Below, piece by piece: positions 11,533 to 35,703 of a stretch of 64,000 nucleotides of DNA. The position numbers were made by a program, and so were the translations under genes. Under the pieces are notes generated by a model, which saw nothing but the letters and a program-made list of their open reading frames with translations, did not search any database and was not told the DNA's origin. This stretch comes from Acidimicrobiales bacterium. Its GTDB lineage: Bacteria; Actinomycetota; Acidimicrobiia; Acidimicrobiales; JACCXE01. Each line of letters starts with the position of its first letter. Within the stretch, counting starts at the first letter, position 1. The DNA lies in assembly GCA_035546775.1 (NCBI GenBank), contig DASZWD010000030.1, positions 124,001 through 188,000 on the forward strand. Direction: 5' to 3'.

Positions 11533-11563
11533 GGCGAGTGAAAGCTACCCCGTCGTATTTCCC

Positions 11564-11578
11564 CTATCGCCGTAGTGG
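11564..11578 (+). promoter_or_regulatory. shared suf element, copy upstream of sufC1
   Basis: CTATC-N3-GTAGTGG lies with exactly 18 nt between it and the sufC1 GTG. The same string, spacer length and distance occur before sufB (35678-35692). This suggests a common operator or promoter core, plausibly for an iron-sulfur-sensing regulator that is not encoded in the window. Confidence 0.6.
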
Positions 11579-11596
11579 TAATAAACTGGAGCGGTC

Positions 11597-12348
<752 letters not shown>

Positions 12349-12352
<4 letters not shown>

Positions 12353-13572
12353 CGCCGAAGCTCGACTCCACGGTCGTCCGCAAGGACTTTCCGATCCTCG
12401 CCGACGGCAAACTCGTGTACCTCGACAGCGCGTCGTCGTCGCAGAAGCCCACGGCTGTACTCGACGCCATGACCCGCTACTACGAGACGACGCACGCCAA
12501 CGTGCACCGCGGCGTCTACGCGATCGCCGAGCAGGCCACGCAGATGTACGAGGACGCGCGGGCGAAGATGGCGCGCTTCCTCGGCGCCGGCGACACCGCC
12601 GAGGTCGTCTTCGCCAAGAACGTCACCGAAGGCATCAACTTGTTCGTCCAGAGCTGGGGCCGCCAAAACCTCAAGCCGGGCGACGTCGTCCTGCTGACCA
12701 CCATGGAGCACCACGCGATGTTGGTGCCGTGGCTGATGCTGGCGCCGCAACTCGGCGTCGAGTTGCGCTACCTCGAGACGACGCCCGACGGCTACCTCGA
12801 CCTGTCGGACCTCGACGCCAAGCTCGCGGGCGTGAAGTTCGTCGGCGTCACCGCGGCGTCGAACGTGCTCGGCACGCTCAACCCAATCCGCCAGATCACC
12901 GACGCGGCGCACGCGGCCGGGGCCGTCGTACTCGTCGACGGCGCGCAGTCAGCGCCGCACGTCGTCACCGACGTCGCCGCGCTCGGCTGTGACGCCTTCG
13001 GGTGGACGGGCCACAAGATGCTCGGCCCGACCGGCATCGGCGGCCTGTGGGCGCGCCGCGACCTGCTCGAGCAGATCCCGCCGTTCCTCGGCGGTGGCGA
13101 GATGATCCGCGACGTCCGCCTCGATGGCTTCGAGCCCAACGACGTGCCGTGGAAGTTCGAGGCGGGCACGCCCCCGATCGCCGAGGCGATCGGGCTCGGC
13201 GCGGCCGTCGACTACATCGGCGCCCTCGGCATGGATGCGATCCGCCAGCACGAGATGGAATTGACGCAGTACGCGTTCGACGCCTTCCGCGAGCACTTCG
13301 GCGACGACGCCACGGTCCACGGACCGCACAACGTCGAGCACCGCACCGGCGTGTTCTCGTTCGCGTACAAGGACATCCACCCGCACGACATCGCCCAGGT
13401 GCTCGACACCCACGGCGTGTGCGTGCGCGCCGGTCACCACTGCGCCAAGCCGCTGATGCGCTGCCTCGGCGTGCCCGCTACCGCCCGCGCGTCGTTCTAC
13501 GTGTACAACGACACGTCCGACGTCGACGCCCTGATCACTGCGTTGGTCGATGCCGACGCCATGTTTTGCTAG
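12349..13572 (+). CDS. sufS: SufS, cysteine desulfurase
   Basis: A 407-residue PLP enzyme that takes sulfur from cysteine for Fe-S cluster synthesis. THANVHRGVYAIAEQ sits near residue 45, the PLP lysine lies in GWTGHKMLGPTGIGGLW near residue 222, and the catalytic cysteine in RAGHHCAKPLM near residue 360. Length and the short catalytic-Cys loop match SufU-dependent SufS enzymes, and sufU follows directly. GTG 12349 overlaps the sufC stop. Confidence 0.96.
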
Positions 13573-13585
13573 GAATCTGATCGCC

Positions 13586-14068
13586 ATGGCCGGCCTCGAA
13601 GACCTCTATCGCGAGATCATCCTCGACCATTACCGCTCGCCGCGGAACCGGGGCGAGTTGCCGTCGCCCCCCGCCACCAAGGTCGAGGGCTACAACCCGC
13701 TGTGCGGCGACGAGATCGTGCTGTACCTCCAGGTCGAAGACGGCGTCGTGACCGACGTGAAGATCGGCGGCCAGGGCTGCTCGATCAGCCAGTCCTCGGC
13801 GTCGATGATGTCGGCCGCCATCAAGGGCAAGACCGTCGCCGAGGTGCGGGCGCTCGTGCGGGCGTTCAAGTCGATGATGTCGATCCACGAGAGCCGTCTC
13901 GAGGGCGAAGGCGAAGCCCCGTCCGCCGAGGATGCCGCCGCCGACGCCGACGTCAAGCTCGGCGATCTCGAGGCGCTTCAGGGCGTGGTGAAGTTCCCCG
14001 TCCGCATCAAGTGCGCCACGCTGAGCTGGAACACGCTCACCCAAGCATTGGACGAAGCCACCGCCTAA
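13586..14068 (+). CDS. sufU: SufU, zinc-dependent sulfurtransferase
   Basis: A 160-residue IscU-like protein. Three conserved cysteines are seen in YNPLCGDEI (near residue 40), IGGQGCSISQSSASMM (near 65) and RIKCATLSW (near 145); the Asp after the first Cys is the fourth Zn ligand. The roughly 20-residue insertion between the second and third motifs is diagnostic of SufU rather than IscU. It accepts persulfide from SufS and passes it to SufBCD. ATG 13586 is 13 bp after sufS; an in-frame ATG at 13550 lies inside sufS and is less likely. Confidence 0.94.
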   Translation: MAGLEDLYREIILDHYRSPRNRGELPSPPATKVEGYNPLCGDEIVLYLQVEDGVVTDVKIGGQGCSISQSSASMMSAAIKGKTVAEVRALVRAFKSMMSIHESRLEGEGEAPSAEDAAADADVKLGDLEALQGVVKFPVRIKCATLSWNTLTQALDEATA

Positions 14069-14082
14069 CTAGAGTTCCCGGC

Positions 14083-14310
14083 GTGGCCCGCGAATACGCA
14101 CCCCATAAGTACGCGACCGAAGACCTCACCGGGCTGATGCTCAAGGTGCACGACAAGGTGGAGGCGATCACGGATCTGCCGGGCGTGCCCGCGGGCACCA
14201 AGGGCAAGGTCATCGTCGCCAACGGCATGAACTGGCGCCGCTACCGGGTCTTGTTCGACAACAAGCAAGAGCTCGGGCACCTCGACGCCCGGCACATCAA
14301 GCAGGTCTGA
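14083..14310 (+). CDS. small hypothetical protein, possible SH3/KOW-like barrel
   Basis: A 75-residue protein from GTG 14083, 14 bp after sufU and in line with it. The run LKVHDKVEAITDLPGVPAGTKGKVIVANGMNWRRYRVLF has the beta-turn pattern of small SH3/KOW-like barrels, but this is only a resemblance. Its position suggests co-transcription with the suf genes. No cysteines are present, so it is not itself an Fe-S protein. Confidence 0.65.
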   Translation: MAREYAPHKYATEDLTGLMLKVHDKVEAITDLPGVPAGTKGKVIVANGMNWRRYRVLFDNKQELGHLDARHIKQV

Positions 14311-18869: not shown

Positions 18870-19652
18870 TCAGGCGAAGGGGTCGGCGAAGGGATCGTCG
18901 GCAGCGGGCGTAGGAACGACGTCGTCCTCGGCGTAGCCCGCGTAGCCCGTCTCTTCGAGTTGCTGGGCCAATTCGGGGCCGCCGGTGGCCACGATGCGAC
19001 CTCCGGCCAGGACGTGCACGACGTCGGGGCGCAGCTCGGTCAGCAGACGCGAGTAGTGGGTGATCGCCAGCACGCCGAGGTTGTCCTCCTGCGTGGCCGC
19101 TTCGATGCGGCGGGCCACGTCGCGCAACGCGTCGACGTCGAGGCCCGAGTCGAGCTCGTCGAGAATGGCGAACTTCGGGCGCAGCACGCCGAGCTGCATG
19201 GTCTCGTTGCGCTTGCGCTCGCCGCCCGACAGGTCGACGTTGAGCGGGCGGTGGATGAACCGCTCGTCGAAGCCGATGCGCGCCGCCTCGGCGCGGATGA
19301 GGTCCCCCACCGGCTCGACGGCGCGGCCACTGGCGCGGAACGCCTCGGTCAGCGCGTCGGTCACCGAGACGCCCGGCACTTCGATCGGGTACTGCATGGC
19401 GAGGAACAAGCCGCGCTGGGCGCGCTCCCAGGCCGGCAGTGCCAGCAGGTTCTCGCCGTCGAGTTCGACGACGCCACCGGTGACCTCGTAGCCCGGTTTG
19501 CCGGCGAGCACGTGGCTCAGCGTCGACTTGCCCGAACCGTTGGGTCCCATGACAGCGTGCACCTCACCGCTGCGCACCTCGAGGTCGATGCCCTTGAGGA
19601 TGTCGCGGCCGGGAATCGACGCCGTGAGCCCACGGATGGAGAGCACGCTCAC
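18870..19652 (-). CDS. sufC: SufC, Fe-S assembly ATPase (copy 2)
   Basis: A 260-residue second SufC. Walker A GPNGSGKST, signature LSGGERKRNET and Walker B AILDELDSGLDVDALR are intact, so it should be active. Unlike copy 1 it has an acidic Pro/Asp C-terminal tail (PTPAADDPFADPFA). GTG 19652 overlaps the Rieske ferredoxin stop (GTGA), giving the order sufD-Rieske-sufC. This operon has its own SufC partner for SufD while sufB stands alone. Confidence 0.94.
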   Translation of the reverse strand: MSVLSIRGLTASIPGRDILKGIDLEVRSGEVHAVMGPNGSGKSTLSHVLAGKPGYEVTGGVVELDGENLLALPAWERAQRGLFLAMQYPIEVPGVSVTDALTEAFRASGRAVEPVGDLIRAEAARIGFDERFIHRPLNVDLSGGERKRNETMQLGVLRPKFAILDELDSGLDVDALRDVARRIEAATQEDNLGVLAITHYSRLLTELRPDVVHVLAGGRIVATGGPELAQQLEETGYAGYAEDDVVPTPAADDPFADPFA

Positions 19653-19963
19653 GGCAACTCCACGTATACGTCGTCGCCGTCGACCTCGGTGGCGTACACC
19701 GGGACGGGGGCGGTAGCGGGCAGGCACTGCGGTTCGCCGTCGAGCAGGCTGAACGTCGAGCCGTGCTTCGGGCACTCGAGTTCGAGTTCGCCGGCGTACA
19801 GCTCGCCTTCGGACAGCGAGTAGTCGGCGTGCGAGCAGACGTCGCCGATGGCATACACGCGCCCGCCGATCAACGCCGCAGCGATCTTGTGGCCCTCGAC
19901 TTCGAAACGCGTCGCCGCCTCGTCGGACAGCTCCTTCACCGAACACAGACGCACCCGGCTCAC
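19649..19963 (-). CDS. Rieske-type [2Fe-2S] ferredoxin
   Basis: A 104-residue protein with one Rieske domain. CSHADYSLSEGEL supplies Cys-x-His and CPKHGSTFSLLDG supplies Cys-x2-His, the complete cluster ligand set of soluble BphA3-like ferredoxins. GTG 19963 overlaps the sufD stop and its own TGA overlaps sufC2, so it is embedded in the operon. In several actinobacteria a Rieske gene accompanies suf genes; a role in electron supply for cluster assembly is plausible but unproven. Confidence 0.92.
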   Translation of the reverse strand: MSRVRLCSVKELSDEAATRFEVEGHKIAAALIGGRVYAIGDVCSHADYSLSEGELYAGELELECPKHGSTFSLLDGEPQCLPATAPVPVYATEVDGDDVYVELP

Positions 19964-21174
19964 AGCACCCCTCCGGCGGCGGCGAACTTCAGGGCAACGG
20001 CGGTGCGCAGCGCGTCGCGCAGCTCGACGACGGGCGTGCGCTCGATGATGTCGTCGAAGAAACCGAGCACGATGAGCCGCTCGGCCACTTCGGTCGGCAC
20101 GCCCCGGGCTTCCAGGTAGAAGCGCTGGTCGGCGTCGACGGGCCCGACGGCGGACGCGTGCGAACACTTCACGTCGTTCTCTTCGATCTCGAGGTTGGGC
20201 ACCGAGTCGGCGTGGGCGCCCTCGCCGAGGACAAGGTTGCGATTGGTCTGGAACGCCGCTGATCCCGAGGCGCCGGGACGGATGCGGATGAGGCCCGAGT
20301 ACACCGACCGGGACGTGTCGGTCAGCACGCCCTTGAACAGCAGATCGCTGCTGGTCTTGGGCGCGTGGTGGTCCTGCATCGTGCGGAAGTCGTGGATCTG
20401 CTCGCCCGAACCGAAGTAGGCGGCGATGAGTTCGGCTGAGGCACCCGGGCCGAGGACCTTGGAGTCGAGCCGGGCGCGGGCGTACGCGCCGCCGAGCGCG
20501 ATCGCCGCGCAGGTGAGGTGGCCGTCGCGTTCGACGCGCGCACCGGCCGTGGCGATCTGCCACACCTTCGGCCCGAGCGCCTGGACGGACTCGTAGCGCA
20601 GCGAGGCGTTGGCGCCGGCGCACAGTTCGACGACGGGCAGGATCAGCGCGTCGATCTCGGCCGAGAGCGCCACGTCGAGCACGGTGACATTGGCCGACGT
20701 GCCGGCGCGCACCAGGATGCGGGGATACACGAGGGCGCCGTCGACGGTGACGTCGTGGACCACGACCACGGGCGTGTCGACGACGGCGTTGGCGGCGACG
20801 TCGACGACGACGCCCGACTCGCTGTAGGCGTCGTTGCGCAGGGTGAAGGCGTCGGGCTCGCTGATCGCCGAGCCCAGCTCGGCCGGAGCCTCGGCGAAGT
20901 CGGACAGCGCGCGCACGCTCAAGCCGGGAGCGTTGACCTCGAGGTGCACGATGCGGTCGTCGCGCACGACGACGAGGGCGGCGCGCTCGGCGGGCACGAG
21001 CGGGTGCTCGACCGCCGGATCCGCGGGGCCGGCGTCGGCCACGGCGGCGTAGCGGCCGAGGTCGAGACCGTCGATACGGCTGTAGCGCCACACTTCGAGG
21101 TCGGAAGTAGGCAGCGCGACGCCGTTCAAAGTCGCCTCGGCCGAGGCGCGTCGGGTCACCAGCCAGTCATTCAC
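19960..21174 (-). CDS. sufD: SufD, Fe-S scaffold subunit
   Basis: A 404-residue beta-helix protein of the SufB/SufD family. The C-terminal core KTSSDLLFKGVLTDTSRSVYSGLIRI and DVKCSHASAVGPVD (near residue 340) contain the conserved His and Cys region. It partners SufB and SufC for cluster assembly and iron entry. Start ATG at 21174. The upstream FAD oxidoreductase ends 17 bp before it, so read-through from that gene is possible; no copy of the sufB/sufC1 element precedes it. Confidence 0.93.
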   Translation of the reverse strand: MNDWLVTRRASAEATLNGVALPTSDLEVWRYSRIDGLDLGRYAAVADAGPADPAVEHPLVPAERAALVVVRDDRIVHLEVNAPGLSVRALSDFAEAPAELGSAISEPDAFTLRNDAYSESGVVVDVAANAVVDTPVVVVHDVTVDGALVYPRILVRAGTSANVTVLDVALSAEIDALILPVVELCAGANASLRYESVQALGPKVWQIATAGARVERDGHLTCAAIALGGAYARARLDSKVLGPGASAELIAAYFGSGEQIHDFRTMQDHHAPKTSSDLLFKGVLTDTSRSVYSGLIRIRPGASGSAAFQTNRNLVLGEGAHADSVPNLEIEENDVKCSHASAVGPVDADQRFYLEARGVPTEVAERLIVLGFFDDIIERTPVVELRDALRTAVALKFAAAGGVL

Positions 21175-21191
21175 GGGATGGCAACTCTAGG

Positions 21192-22439
21192 TCACAGGCC
21201 TCCGACCCCAAACATCTCGGCGACCCGCACCGCGCTTTCGACCCCGTCCTCGTGGAAGCCCCACCCCCAGTAGGCGCCGCAGTAGTGGGTGCGGTTGACG
21301 CCGCTGATCTCCTTGTGCCGCCGCTGGGCGTCACGGCCCGCAGCCGTGAACACCGGATGGGCGTAATCGATGCGCTGGATGACCGTGGACGGGTCGATCG
21401 CCGCGGTGTGGTTGAGCGTGACGCAGAACTCGCGGTCGGCCCGCAGCGACTGGAGGCGGTTCATGTAATACGTGACCGTCGTCAGCGGGGGCGGGTCGGC
21501 CAGCAGGTGGAAGTTCCAGCTCGCCCAGGCCCGCCGCCGCCGCGGCAGCAGCGAACGGTCGGTGTGCAGCACGGCCTCGTTGTGCTGGTACGGAATGGCG
21601 CCGAGGATCTCGTGTTCGCGACCTGACGCGTCGGTCAACCGCCGCAGCGCCTGGTCGGAGTGCACCGCGAACACCACTTCGTCGAAGCGCCGCGCCTCGC
21701 CGCCTGTGGGCTGCACCAGCACGTGGTCGTCGAGACGCGTCACCGCCGCCACCGGCGCCTTCACGTGAATCCGGTCGCGCATCGGGGCCACGAGCGCTTC
21801 GACGTAGCGGTGCGAACCGCCCACCACTGTGCGCCACTTCGGCCGCCCGCGAATGGCGAGCATGCCGTGGTTGTCGAAGAACTCGGCGAGGAACGACGCC
21901 GGGAACTCCCACATCTGGCGTGGATCGGCCGACCACACCGACGAGGCCTGCGGCACGATCAGCCGGTCGATGAAGGCCCGCGAGAAACGCTTGCGCTCGA
22001 GCCAGGCGCCGAGCGATTCGTCGCCCTCGGGGTCGTCGAGCAGTTCGCTCGCTTCGCGGTGGAAGCGGTTGAGGTCGTTGAGCATCCGGTAGAAGCCGGG
22101 TTGGAGGGCGTGGGTGCGCTTGGCGAAGATGCCGTTGACGCCGGTGCTGGCGTACTCGAAATCGCCGTGGTCGTCGGTGACCGAAAAGCTCATGTCCGAG
22201 GGCTGCCAGCCCACGCCGAGGGTGCGCAACAACCGCTCGAATAGCGGGTAGTTGCGGTCGTTGAACACGATGAAGCCGGTGTCGACCCAGTACGTGTTGT
22301 CGGCGGTGTCGACCCGGACGGTGTTGGTGTGGCCGCCGATGTAGTCGCCGGCCTCGAAGACCGTGACGGCGTGTTTGCGCCGCAAGAGGTGGGCGGCTAC
22401 GAGTCCCGAGACGCCGCCGCCGATGACCGCGATCTCCAC
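21192..22439 (-). CDS. FAD-dependent amine-oxidase-fold oxidoreductase (COG2907-like)
   Basis: A 415-residue flavoprotein starting with GTG 22439. VIGGGVSGLVAAHLLRR is the FAD-binding Rossmann motif and FEAGDYIGGHTNTV the second FAD motif; WVDTGFIVFNDRNYPLF and YCGAYWGWGFHEDGV are characteristic of COG2907 proteins. These are repeatedly found next to DUF1365 and cyclopropane-synthase genes, as here, and are implicated in modifying membrane fatty acids. It is divergent from the methyltransferase at 22471 with shared inverted repeats between them. Confidence 0.85.
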   Translation of the reverse strand: MEIAVIGGGVSGLVAAHLLRRKHAVTVFEAGDYIGGHTNTVRVDTADNTYWVDTGFIVFNDRNYPLFERLLRTLGVGWQPSDMSFSVTDDHGDFEYASTGVNGIFAKRTHALQPGFYRMLNDLNRFHREASELLDDPEGDESLGAWLERKRFSRAFIDRLIVPQASSVWSADPRQMWEFPASFLAEFFDNHGMLAIRGRPKWRTVVGGSHRYVEALVAPMRDRIHVKAPVAAVTRLDDHVLVQPTGGEARRFDEVVFAVHSDQALRRLTDASGREHEILGAIPYQHNEAVLHTDRSLLPRRRRAWASWNFHLLADPPPLTTVTYYMNRLQSLRADREFCVTLNHTAAIDPSTVIQRIDYAHPVFTAAGRDAQRRHKEISGVNRTHYCGAYWGWGFHEDGVESAVRVAEMFGVGGL

Positions 22440-33833: not shown

Positions 33834-34256
33834 ATGCGACGACTGGCAGTGGCGGTTTTGTGTGTGCTCGCGCTCGGGGCGTGTGGCAAGAACGACAAGA
33901 AGGACTCGTCAGGTACGGCGACGACGGTGACGACGACCGCGTCGACGACGAGTACGAGCACGACGATTCCGAGCGGCCCGGCCCAGACACCGCAGGGCGC
34001 CGCCGACGGCCTCTACGGCGCGTGGGTGGGCAACAACCAGGACGACGCGTCGCGCTACGCCAAGCCGCAGGCGATCACCAAGCTGTTCGCCCACCCGTAC
34101 TCGTCGGCGACGAAGTACGACCGCCAGCCGTGCACGCCCGTCGGTGGGCAGTTCAACTGCGTGTGGACCTACGAGGGCGGCTCGTTGCAGATGACGGTCG
34201 AGAACTGGCCGGGCGGCGGCTACGTCGTCGACAGCATCATTTACGTGGCGGACTAG
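33834..34256 (+). CDS. small lipoprotein with Thr/Ser stalk
   Basis: A 140-residue lipoprotein: signal [21 protein letters not shown] with lipobox LGAC, a stalk of Thr, Ser and Ala, and a globular part of about 90 residues with two cysteines ([15 protein letters not shown]) likely to form a disulfide. [22 protein letters not shown] is helical. The fold is not recognised. It ends in convergent overlap of 4 bp with sufB. Confidence 0.78.
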
Positions 34257-35659
34257 CCGATCGAGCCTTCCATCTGGAGTTCGATCAACCGGGACCACTC
34301 CACGGCGTACTCCATCGGCAGCGTCTTGGTGATCGGCTCGATGAAGCCGTTCACGATCATGCCCATCGCCTGCTCTTCGGACAGGCCGCGGCTCATCAGA
34401 TAGAAGAGCTGCTCCGAGCCGATCTTCGACACGGTGGCCTCGTGACCGATCGCAGCGTCGCGCTCGCCCACTTCCATGTACGGATAGGTGTCGGACTGGC
34501 TGTCCTCGTCGAGCAACAGGGCGTCGCAGCGGACGAAGCTCTTGGAGTTCGTCGCGCCCTCGTCGACGTGGACGAGGCCGCGGTACGTGGTGCGTCCACC
34601 GTCCTTCGAGATCGACTTCGAGATGATGGTGGACGTGGTCTCCGGCGCGCAGTGGTACATCTTGGCTCCGGTGTCCTGCCACTGATCGGCGCCCGCATAG
34701 GCCACCGACAGCACCTCACCCGACGCCTTCGGACCCATGAGGTACACCGACGGGTACTTGATCGTGCGCTTCGAGCCGATGTTGCCGTCAATCCATTCGA
34801 CGTGGGCGCCCTCTTCGGCACGGGCTCGCTTCGTCACGAGGTTGTAGACGTTGTTCGACCAGTTCTGGATCGTGGTGTACGTGATGCGCGAGTGCGGCTT
34901 GGCGATGAGTTCGACGACCGCCGAGTGCAGCGAGTCGGTGTCCTTGGCGTACACCGGCGCCGAGCAGCCCTCGATGTAGTGCACCTGCGCGCCTTCGTCG
35001 GCGATGATCAGCGTGCGCTCGAACTGGCCGGCGTTTTCCGAGTTGATCCGGAAGTACGCCTGCAGCGGTAGCTCGCAATTCACACCCGGCGGCACGTAGA
35101 TGAACGAGCCACCCGACCAGACCGCCGAGTTGAGGGCGGCGAACTTGTTGTCGCCCGGTGGGATGACGGTGCCGAAGTACTGCTTGAGCAGTTCCGGATA
35201 CTCCCGCAGCGCCGTGTCCATGTCGCAGAAGATGATCCCCTGCTTCTCGAGGTCTTCGCGGTTGCGGTGGTAAACCACTTCGCTCTCATATTGTGAGGTG
35301 ACGCCGGCGAAGTAGCGCTGCTCGGCTTCGGGAATCCCGAGCTTCTCGTAGGTCTGCCGCATCTGTTCGGGCAGCTCGTCCCAGTCGTCGGTGACCTGCT
35401 CCGTCGGCTTGATGTAGTAGTAGATGTCGTCGAAGTCGATGTTCGGGATGTGGTCGGCGAACCACGCCGCCATCGGCTTCTTGTCAAAGCGCTGGAGCGA
35501 CTTCAGCCGGAACTTGGTCATCCAGTCCGGCTCGCCCTTCCACCACGAGATGTCCTTGACGACGTTCTCGCTCAGGCCCTTGGCCGGCTTGAAGACGTAG
35601 TTCTCCGCGTCGCTCCAGCCCAGCGCGTACTTACTGAGGTTGAGCTCTTCAATCGCCAC
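34253..35659 (-). CDS. sufB: SufB, Fe-S scaffold subunit
   Basis: A 468-residue Suf[53 protein letters not shown] and [22 protein letters not shown] are highly conserved in the family, the last with the conserved Cys near residue 405. It is the scaffold on which the cluster forms with SufC and SufD. The start is GTG at 35659. No other suf gene adjoins it; the partner genes are 13-24 kb away. Upstream is the element shared with sufC1. Confidence 0.95.
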
Positions 35660-35677
35660 TGCAACGCCTCCGAATTT

Positions 35678-35692
35678 CCACTACCTAGATAG
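35678..35692 (-). promoter_or_regulatory. shared suf element, copy upstream of sufB
   Basis: On the minus strand CTATC-N3-GTAGTGG ends 18 nt before the sufB GTG, as at sufC1. Here it also overlaps the inverted repeat ACTAC-N7-GTAGT, which supports protein binding by a dimer. Confidence 0.6.
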
Positions 35693-35703
35693 TAGTAAAC
35701 CCG

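Follow-up and report, generated by a model that had tools for sequence, protein, structure and literature searches.

How can the genes of a SUF system be kept in step when they lie in several places? The question arose from the DNA considered here, a stretch of 64,000 nucleotides from a genome of the Acidimicrobiales (hereafter the window). An earlier note had reported one element, CTATC-N3-GTAGTGG, upstream of both sufC1 and sufB, and had proposed it as an unrecognised, Fe-S-responsive operator which coordinates a split SUF system. Both copies were found at the coordinates and on the strands reported, CTATCGCCGTAGTGG at 11564-11578 (+) and CTATCTAGGTAGTGG at 35678-35692 (−), each followed by 18 nt and then by a GTG start codon. 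The genes concerned are sufC and sufB according to TIGR01978 and TIGR01980. The additional repeat reported at sufB, ACTAC-N7-GTAGT, is also present. The proposal of a coordinating operator is supported by the analysis below, with the response to Fe-S status as a predicted property.

The window contains a full SUF gene set, in which sufB, sufD, sufC, sufS and sufU all exceed NCBIfam equivalog or subfamily cut-offs. The host genome has two genes of the SufBD family, both located within the window. The genes form three units: sufC1-sufS-sufU with a short ORF (11597-14307, +), sufD-Rieske-sufC2 (21174-18870, −) and sufB (−).

11597-12352, +, sufC1, Fe-S assembly ATPase (TIGR01978, 320 bits, above cut-off)
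12349-13572, +, sufS, cysteine desulfurase (TIGR01979, 500.8 bits, above cut-off)
13586-14068, +, sufU (TIGR01994, 155.6 bits, above cut-off)
18870-19649, −, sufC2 (TIGR01978, 270 bits)
19649-19960, −, Rieske-type ferredoxin between sufD and sufC2 (reading frame, named by sequence; relatives have homologues in this position)
19960-21174, −, sufD (TIGR01981, 228.2 bits against a cut-off of 222)
34253-35659, −, sufB (TIGR01980, 697 bits)

The system is split, as had been claimed, but into three units, and the sufD-Rieske-sufC2 unit between the two copies has no site. A scan of the window with a position weight matrix revealed no recognisable operator copy at the sufD unit, whereas relatives carry one at sufD. 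The short ORF after sufU (14083-14307, +, about 75 aa) is 79% identical to an ORF at the same place in a genome of the same genus (G003); it has no Pfam or NCBIfam match and possibly encodes a SUF accessory protein. TAGAGT hexamers occur a few bases before GTG starts at 14068-14085 and 21174-21195 of the window, which suggests that leaderless transcripts are widespread in this organism.

When the whole host genome (3.75 Mb, 75 contigs) was searched for CTATC-N3-GTAGTGG with at most one mismatch, only the two places before sufC1 and sufB were found, compared with 12 for the reversed control pattern; about 0.18 exact matches are expected from base composition. The upstream regions of sufB in Acidimicrobiales relatives share a longer common element, RRTTGTTACTATSNNSRTAGKRGWAATTY. 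Combination of the sufB, sufC1 and sufD sites yields a dyad of 28 bp with the consensus ATTnCCACTAY-N4-RTAGTGGnAAT. The 12 fixed bases first noticed are present in both copies, but the conserved unit is this larger dyad. Similarly, the exact distance of 18 nt is true for both host genes but is not conserved: in relatives the gap between element and sufB ranges from about 19 nt to 90 nt or beyond. We therefore regard the shared spacing as a coincidence of the host genome and dropped it as a functional feature. The two dyads of the window are:

11556-11583, no strand, palindromic operator at sufC1, containing 11564-11578 (20 of 28 positions symmetric; genome profile E = 4.6e-4)
35673-35700, no strand, palindromic operator at sufB, containing 35678-35692 (18 of 28 positions symmetric; genome profile E = 1.1e-5)

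A symmetry of at least 18 of 28 positions is reached by 519 of the 63,972 28-mers of the window. Since such symmetry alone is not rare, the weight of the dyad comes from its conservation.

A strict form of the dyad pattern occurs at 97 places in 91 of 148 Acidimicrobiales genomes, compared with three places for the reversed control. Eighty of these places are located 42-233 nt upstream of a match to the sufB profile. The other 17 include places at sufC1 (G116, G146, G115), at sufD (G116, G063, G006), at a sufB split by an intein (G042) and at a gene for an Nfu-type scaffold (G116, L153:4613-5000). Four more precede sufB genes whose profile match begins late (G123, G090, G045, G041), three are near contig ends (G135, G067, G071) and one is in G089; the last, next to a cytochrome oxidase gene in G143, is apparently a chance match. 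An Rrf2 gene with several cysteines is found about 0.9 kb from the Nfu-type scaffold site. SufB frames of about 590-895 aa with an interrupted profile match, as expected for inteins in SufB, occur in ten genomes (G097, G129, G099, G010, G042, G045, G072, G089, G090, G123).

With a profile (R1), the dyad was found in 117 of the 148 genomes. All 40 of the places outside sufB that were fetched lie directly before sufC1-sufS(-sufU), sufS-sufU or sufD(-Rieske). In G163, which belongs to a different order of the class, the site precedes a sufB-sufD-Rieske-sufC run. Outside the class Acidimicrobiia, matches are scattered and look random, and the dyad was not found in the sufB upstream regions of Streptomyces and Mycobacterium. 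Two findings had been named in advance as speaking against an operator, many copies away from Fe-S genes and absence from the sufB/sufC promoters in close relatives. The host genome has no copy at an unrelated gene, and most relatives carry the site at these promoters. Sequence comparison thus strongly supports the dyad as the operator of a SUF regulon.

The position of the dyad relative to the promoters was analysed with −10 elements that were assigned by consensus only throughout. In the window, these are:

11582-11587, +, putative sufC1 −10, TAAACT, which overlaps the edge of the operator (at +13 relative to the dyad centre; 16 relatives share this register)
35689-35694, −, putative sufB −10, TACTAT, within the left half-site

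TACTAT is found inside the left half at 49 of 57 sufB sites. At sufC1, TAnAnT starts at +13 from the dyad centre in 17 of 37 sites and at about +27 in 15 of them, and the sufD sites have TAGNNT at +4 (8 of 14) or TAGAAT at +7 (4 of 14). As several registers overlap the core promoter, the factor which binds the dyad would most simply be a repressor.

A candidate for this factor was found at a third site. At E ≤ 3, the profile search of the host genome gave only three matches. Two are those at sufB and sufC1, and the third lies on contig C16, between a gene for a SufR-like winged-helix protein and a divergent gene for an Fe-S carrier of the Mrp/ApbC type (Pfam FeS_assembly_P and a NUBPL-type ATPase).

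C16:37838-38542, −, SufR-like winged-helix regulator, 234 aa (HTH_20; C-X12-C-X32-C near the C-terminus)

The same regulator-site-mrp arrangement is found in six relatives (G014, G063, G006, G011, G044, G061). Most of their sites contain TAGAAT or TATAAT in the right half, a short distance upstream of the regulator start codon. A recognisable site at the promoter of the regulator gene itself was found in none of four other genomes with an orthologue (G026, G096, G128, G048), and in G146 it is at most weak. The winged-helix domain of the host protein scores 35.8 bits against Pfam HTH_20 (cut-off 27). Three cysteines, C183, C196 and C229, are invariant in 12 SufR-like orthologues (pattern CPFG...HPV.CA...GD..C.T). 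Profile comparison with SufR of Streptomyces, Mycobacterium and Actinomadura (hhalign, 99.2% probability, E = 3.5e-19, 195 columns) revealed homology over the full length and paired the three cysteines with cysteines of the actinobacterial SufR proteins. The host regulator reaches only 26.8 bits with the TIGR02702 equivalog model (cut-off 178.8 bits), and we therefore call it SufR-like. This cut-off does not separate the branch from accepted actinobacterial SufR proteins, because those encoded at the suf loci of Streptomyces and Mycobacterium also fall below it (97 and 79 bits). A second winged-helix regulator (29-36% identical, CPF...LVC) is encoded divergently from a second Mrp-type ATPase gene, without the palindrome, at four loci (L336, L339, L346, L348), where it forms a parallel regulator-Mrp pair.

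The SufR-like protein tends to occur together with the motif. Among 24 genomes searched for SufR-like proteins, with G128 left out of the table because no sufB was found there, 11 have both orthologue and motif, none the regulator only, four the motif only and eight neither (Fisher p = 0.0013, from hand counts uncorrected for shared ancestry). Searches with the TIGR02702 HMM detected no orthologue in motif-bearing G116 and G019, nor in the motif-bearing incomplete assemblies G003 and G134. Orthologues have probably been missed in motif-bearing genomes, since this HMM is weak for the branch. Within family f26, the SufR-like gene occurs with a good site in G026, both are missing from G075 and G143, and only a degraded site is present in G111. 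A classical SufR gene adjoins a different sufB in four genomes which lack the motif (G138, G133, G050, G080; L317-L320), where it is divergent from a gene of a second SufB clade. This clade occurs in some Acidimicrobiales, and five genomes carry both SufB types (G044, G047, G058, G100, G126). Classical, sufB-linked SufR was rejected as the reader of the dyad, as it is found only in these second-clade lineages without the motif. The SufR-like protein is most likely the repressor which reads the dyad and is a well-supported candidate for this role; we infer from its sequence that it binds the operator, represses and senses an Fe-S cluster.

Could the repeat be explained without a regulator? It might belong to the core promoter of the suf genes, as a −10 or extended −10, since the sufB sites contain TGTTACTAT, which resembles an extended −10, and −10-like hexamers are present inside or beside all sites. 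However, the −10 registers differ among sufB, sufD and sufC1 while the dyad is kept, and core promoter elements are not limited to two or three places per genome, which makes this reading very improbable. Even less probable is an RNA hairpin in the 5′ leader of the suf mRNAs. A stem of 5 to 10 base pairs could form from the dyad, but the likely −10 of most sufC1 and sufD promoters is located in the right half or further downstream, which would leave the dyad there untranscribed; the dyad also occurs between divergent genes. Both readings were rejected on the −10 registers. A chance likeness of two promoters had to be considered at the outset, as the 12 fixed bases had been spotted by eye in a single window; conservation of the dyad at the same genes in more than 100 genomes refutes it and leaves it the least credible explanation of all.

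A more serious alternative accepts the operator but assigns it to a regulator of the IscR/Rrf2 type rather than to the SufR-like protein. Both Rrf2- and SufR-type regulators had been named in the earlier note, and the evidence came to favour the latter. The host gene is:

C40:40532-40969 (L005:1462-1902), −, IscR-like Rrf2 regulator (motif GAC-x-HEGQC; invariant C-x-HEG-x-C)

This protein was favoured at first because it is near-universal in the order (found at 66% identity or above in about 136 of the 148 genomes) and because its recognition helix resembles that of IscR (YLEQ). The dyad also contains CC-N14-GG in an A/T-rich frame, which we take to be loosely like IscR type 2 sites. The association of Rrf2 with the motif is weak by hand counts (107 of 136 genomes with Rrf2 against 5 of 12 without, p about 0.009). 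Against this, no site was found at the gene's own promoter in 30 loci examined, many lineages have lost the motif but kept Rrf2, and no Rrf2 at all was found in G096 and G026, which bear the motif. Rrf2 is lacking in all four genomes of family f26. Its gene thus shows neither a site of its own nor consistent presence in motif-bearing genomes, and we demoted Rrf2 to a much less likely reader of the dyad; the reading as a whole is improbable, though less so than those of the preceding paragraph. A second Rrf2 paralogue (host contig C48) was dropped due to its patchy distribution.

Our preferred reading, to which we assign a probability of roughly 0.77, is that the dyad is the operator of the SUF regulon across Acidimicrobiia and is repressed by the unlinked, autoregulated SufR-like protein. 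A dimeric repressor would bind the 28-bp palindrome, overlapping or abutting the core promoter. When Fe-S clusters are plentiful, the holo-regulator would bind and silence sufB, sufC1-sufS-sufU and its own gene, and in relatives also sufD-Rieske-sufC. Upon loss of the clusters, the scattered suf operons would be released together. A further idea is more speculative, and we consider it doubtful. The regulator may constitute a separate SufR branch that reads a DNA code of its own and is encoded apart from suf, head-to-head with Mrp; regulator and carrier would form a feedback module for a dispersed SUF system. Mrp might then supply or drain the cluster of the regulator and so set the expression of SUF over two or three operons.

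For a poorly studied actinobacterial class, these results define an operator and a closed regulon and point to a single regulator that can be tested, and they illustrate how coordination of a split SUF system can be maintained. Genomes that keep regulator and operator, genomes in which these have decayed and genomes with classical sufB-linked SufR in their place form a natural series within the class. SufR and its repression of suf are already known. The Acidimicrobiia branch, its operator sequence, the position of its gene beside mrp and the class-wide regulon of dispersed operons seem not to have been described in searchable papers; a literature search that excluded most subscription journals found no paper on both Acidimicrobi* and SufR.

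Three known systems may be compared. With IscR/Rrf2, the Acidimicrobiia system shares a regulon for Fe-S biogenesis, a palindromic operator and, presumably, the logic of repression, and an IscR-like gene is present in the host genome; it differs in that the Rrf2 gene of the order has no site and its presence does not track the motif. ArnR of Corynebacterium is a winged-helix protein which carries a [4Fe-4S] cluster and has three cysteines near its C-terminus (PMC12343034). By description, the Acidimicrobiia regulator resembles it in the winged helix and the cysteines, but ArnR governs nitrate respiration and hmp rather than suf.

The closest likeness is to SufR, reported to repress suf and itself in Streptomyces avermitilis, Mycobacterium tuberculosis (Rv1460) and cyanobacteria (PMC11995493, PMC8593673, PMC6034842). 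Shared features are the winged-helix regulator, the C-terminal cysteines with C-X12-C spacing, and a threonine that follows the third cysteine. In Rv1460, C203, C216 and C244 are needed for function (PMC6034842); the third cysteine is spaced differently, with C-X12-C-X27-C in Rv1460 and C-X12-C-X32-C in the Acidimicrobiia regulator. The S. avermitilis SufR site overlaps the −10 and ends at the transcription start (PMC11995493), in agreement with the overlap of dyad and putative −10 elements found here. Known SufR sites of cyanobacteria and Streptomyces have the form CAAC-N6-GTTG (PMC8593673, PMC11995493), from which the consensus palindrome of the Acidimicrobiia differs. TIGR02702 scores are 24-37 bits for the Acidimicrobiia regulator and 79-100 bits for the SufR proteins tested. 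Finally, the known sufR gene is part of a suf operon, whereas the SufR-like gene of the Acidimicrobiia adjoins mrp, and its product would govern two or three separate suf operons.
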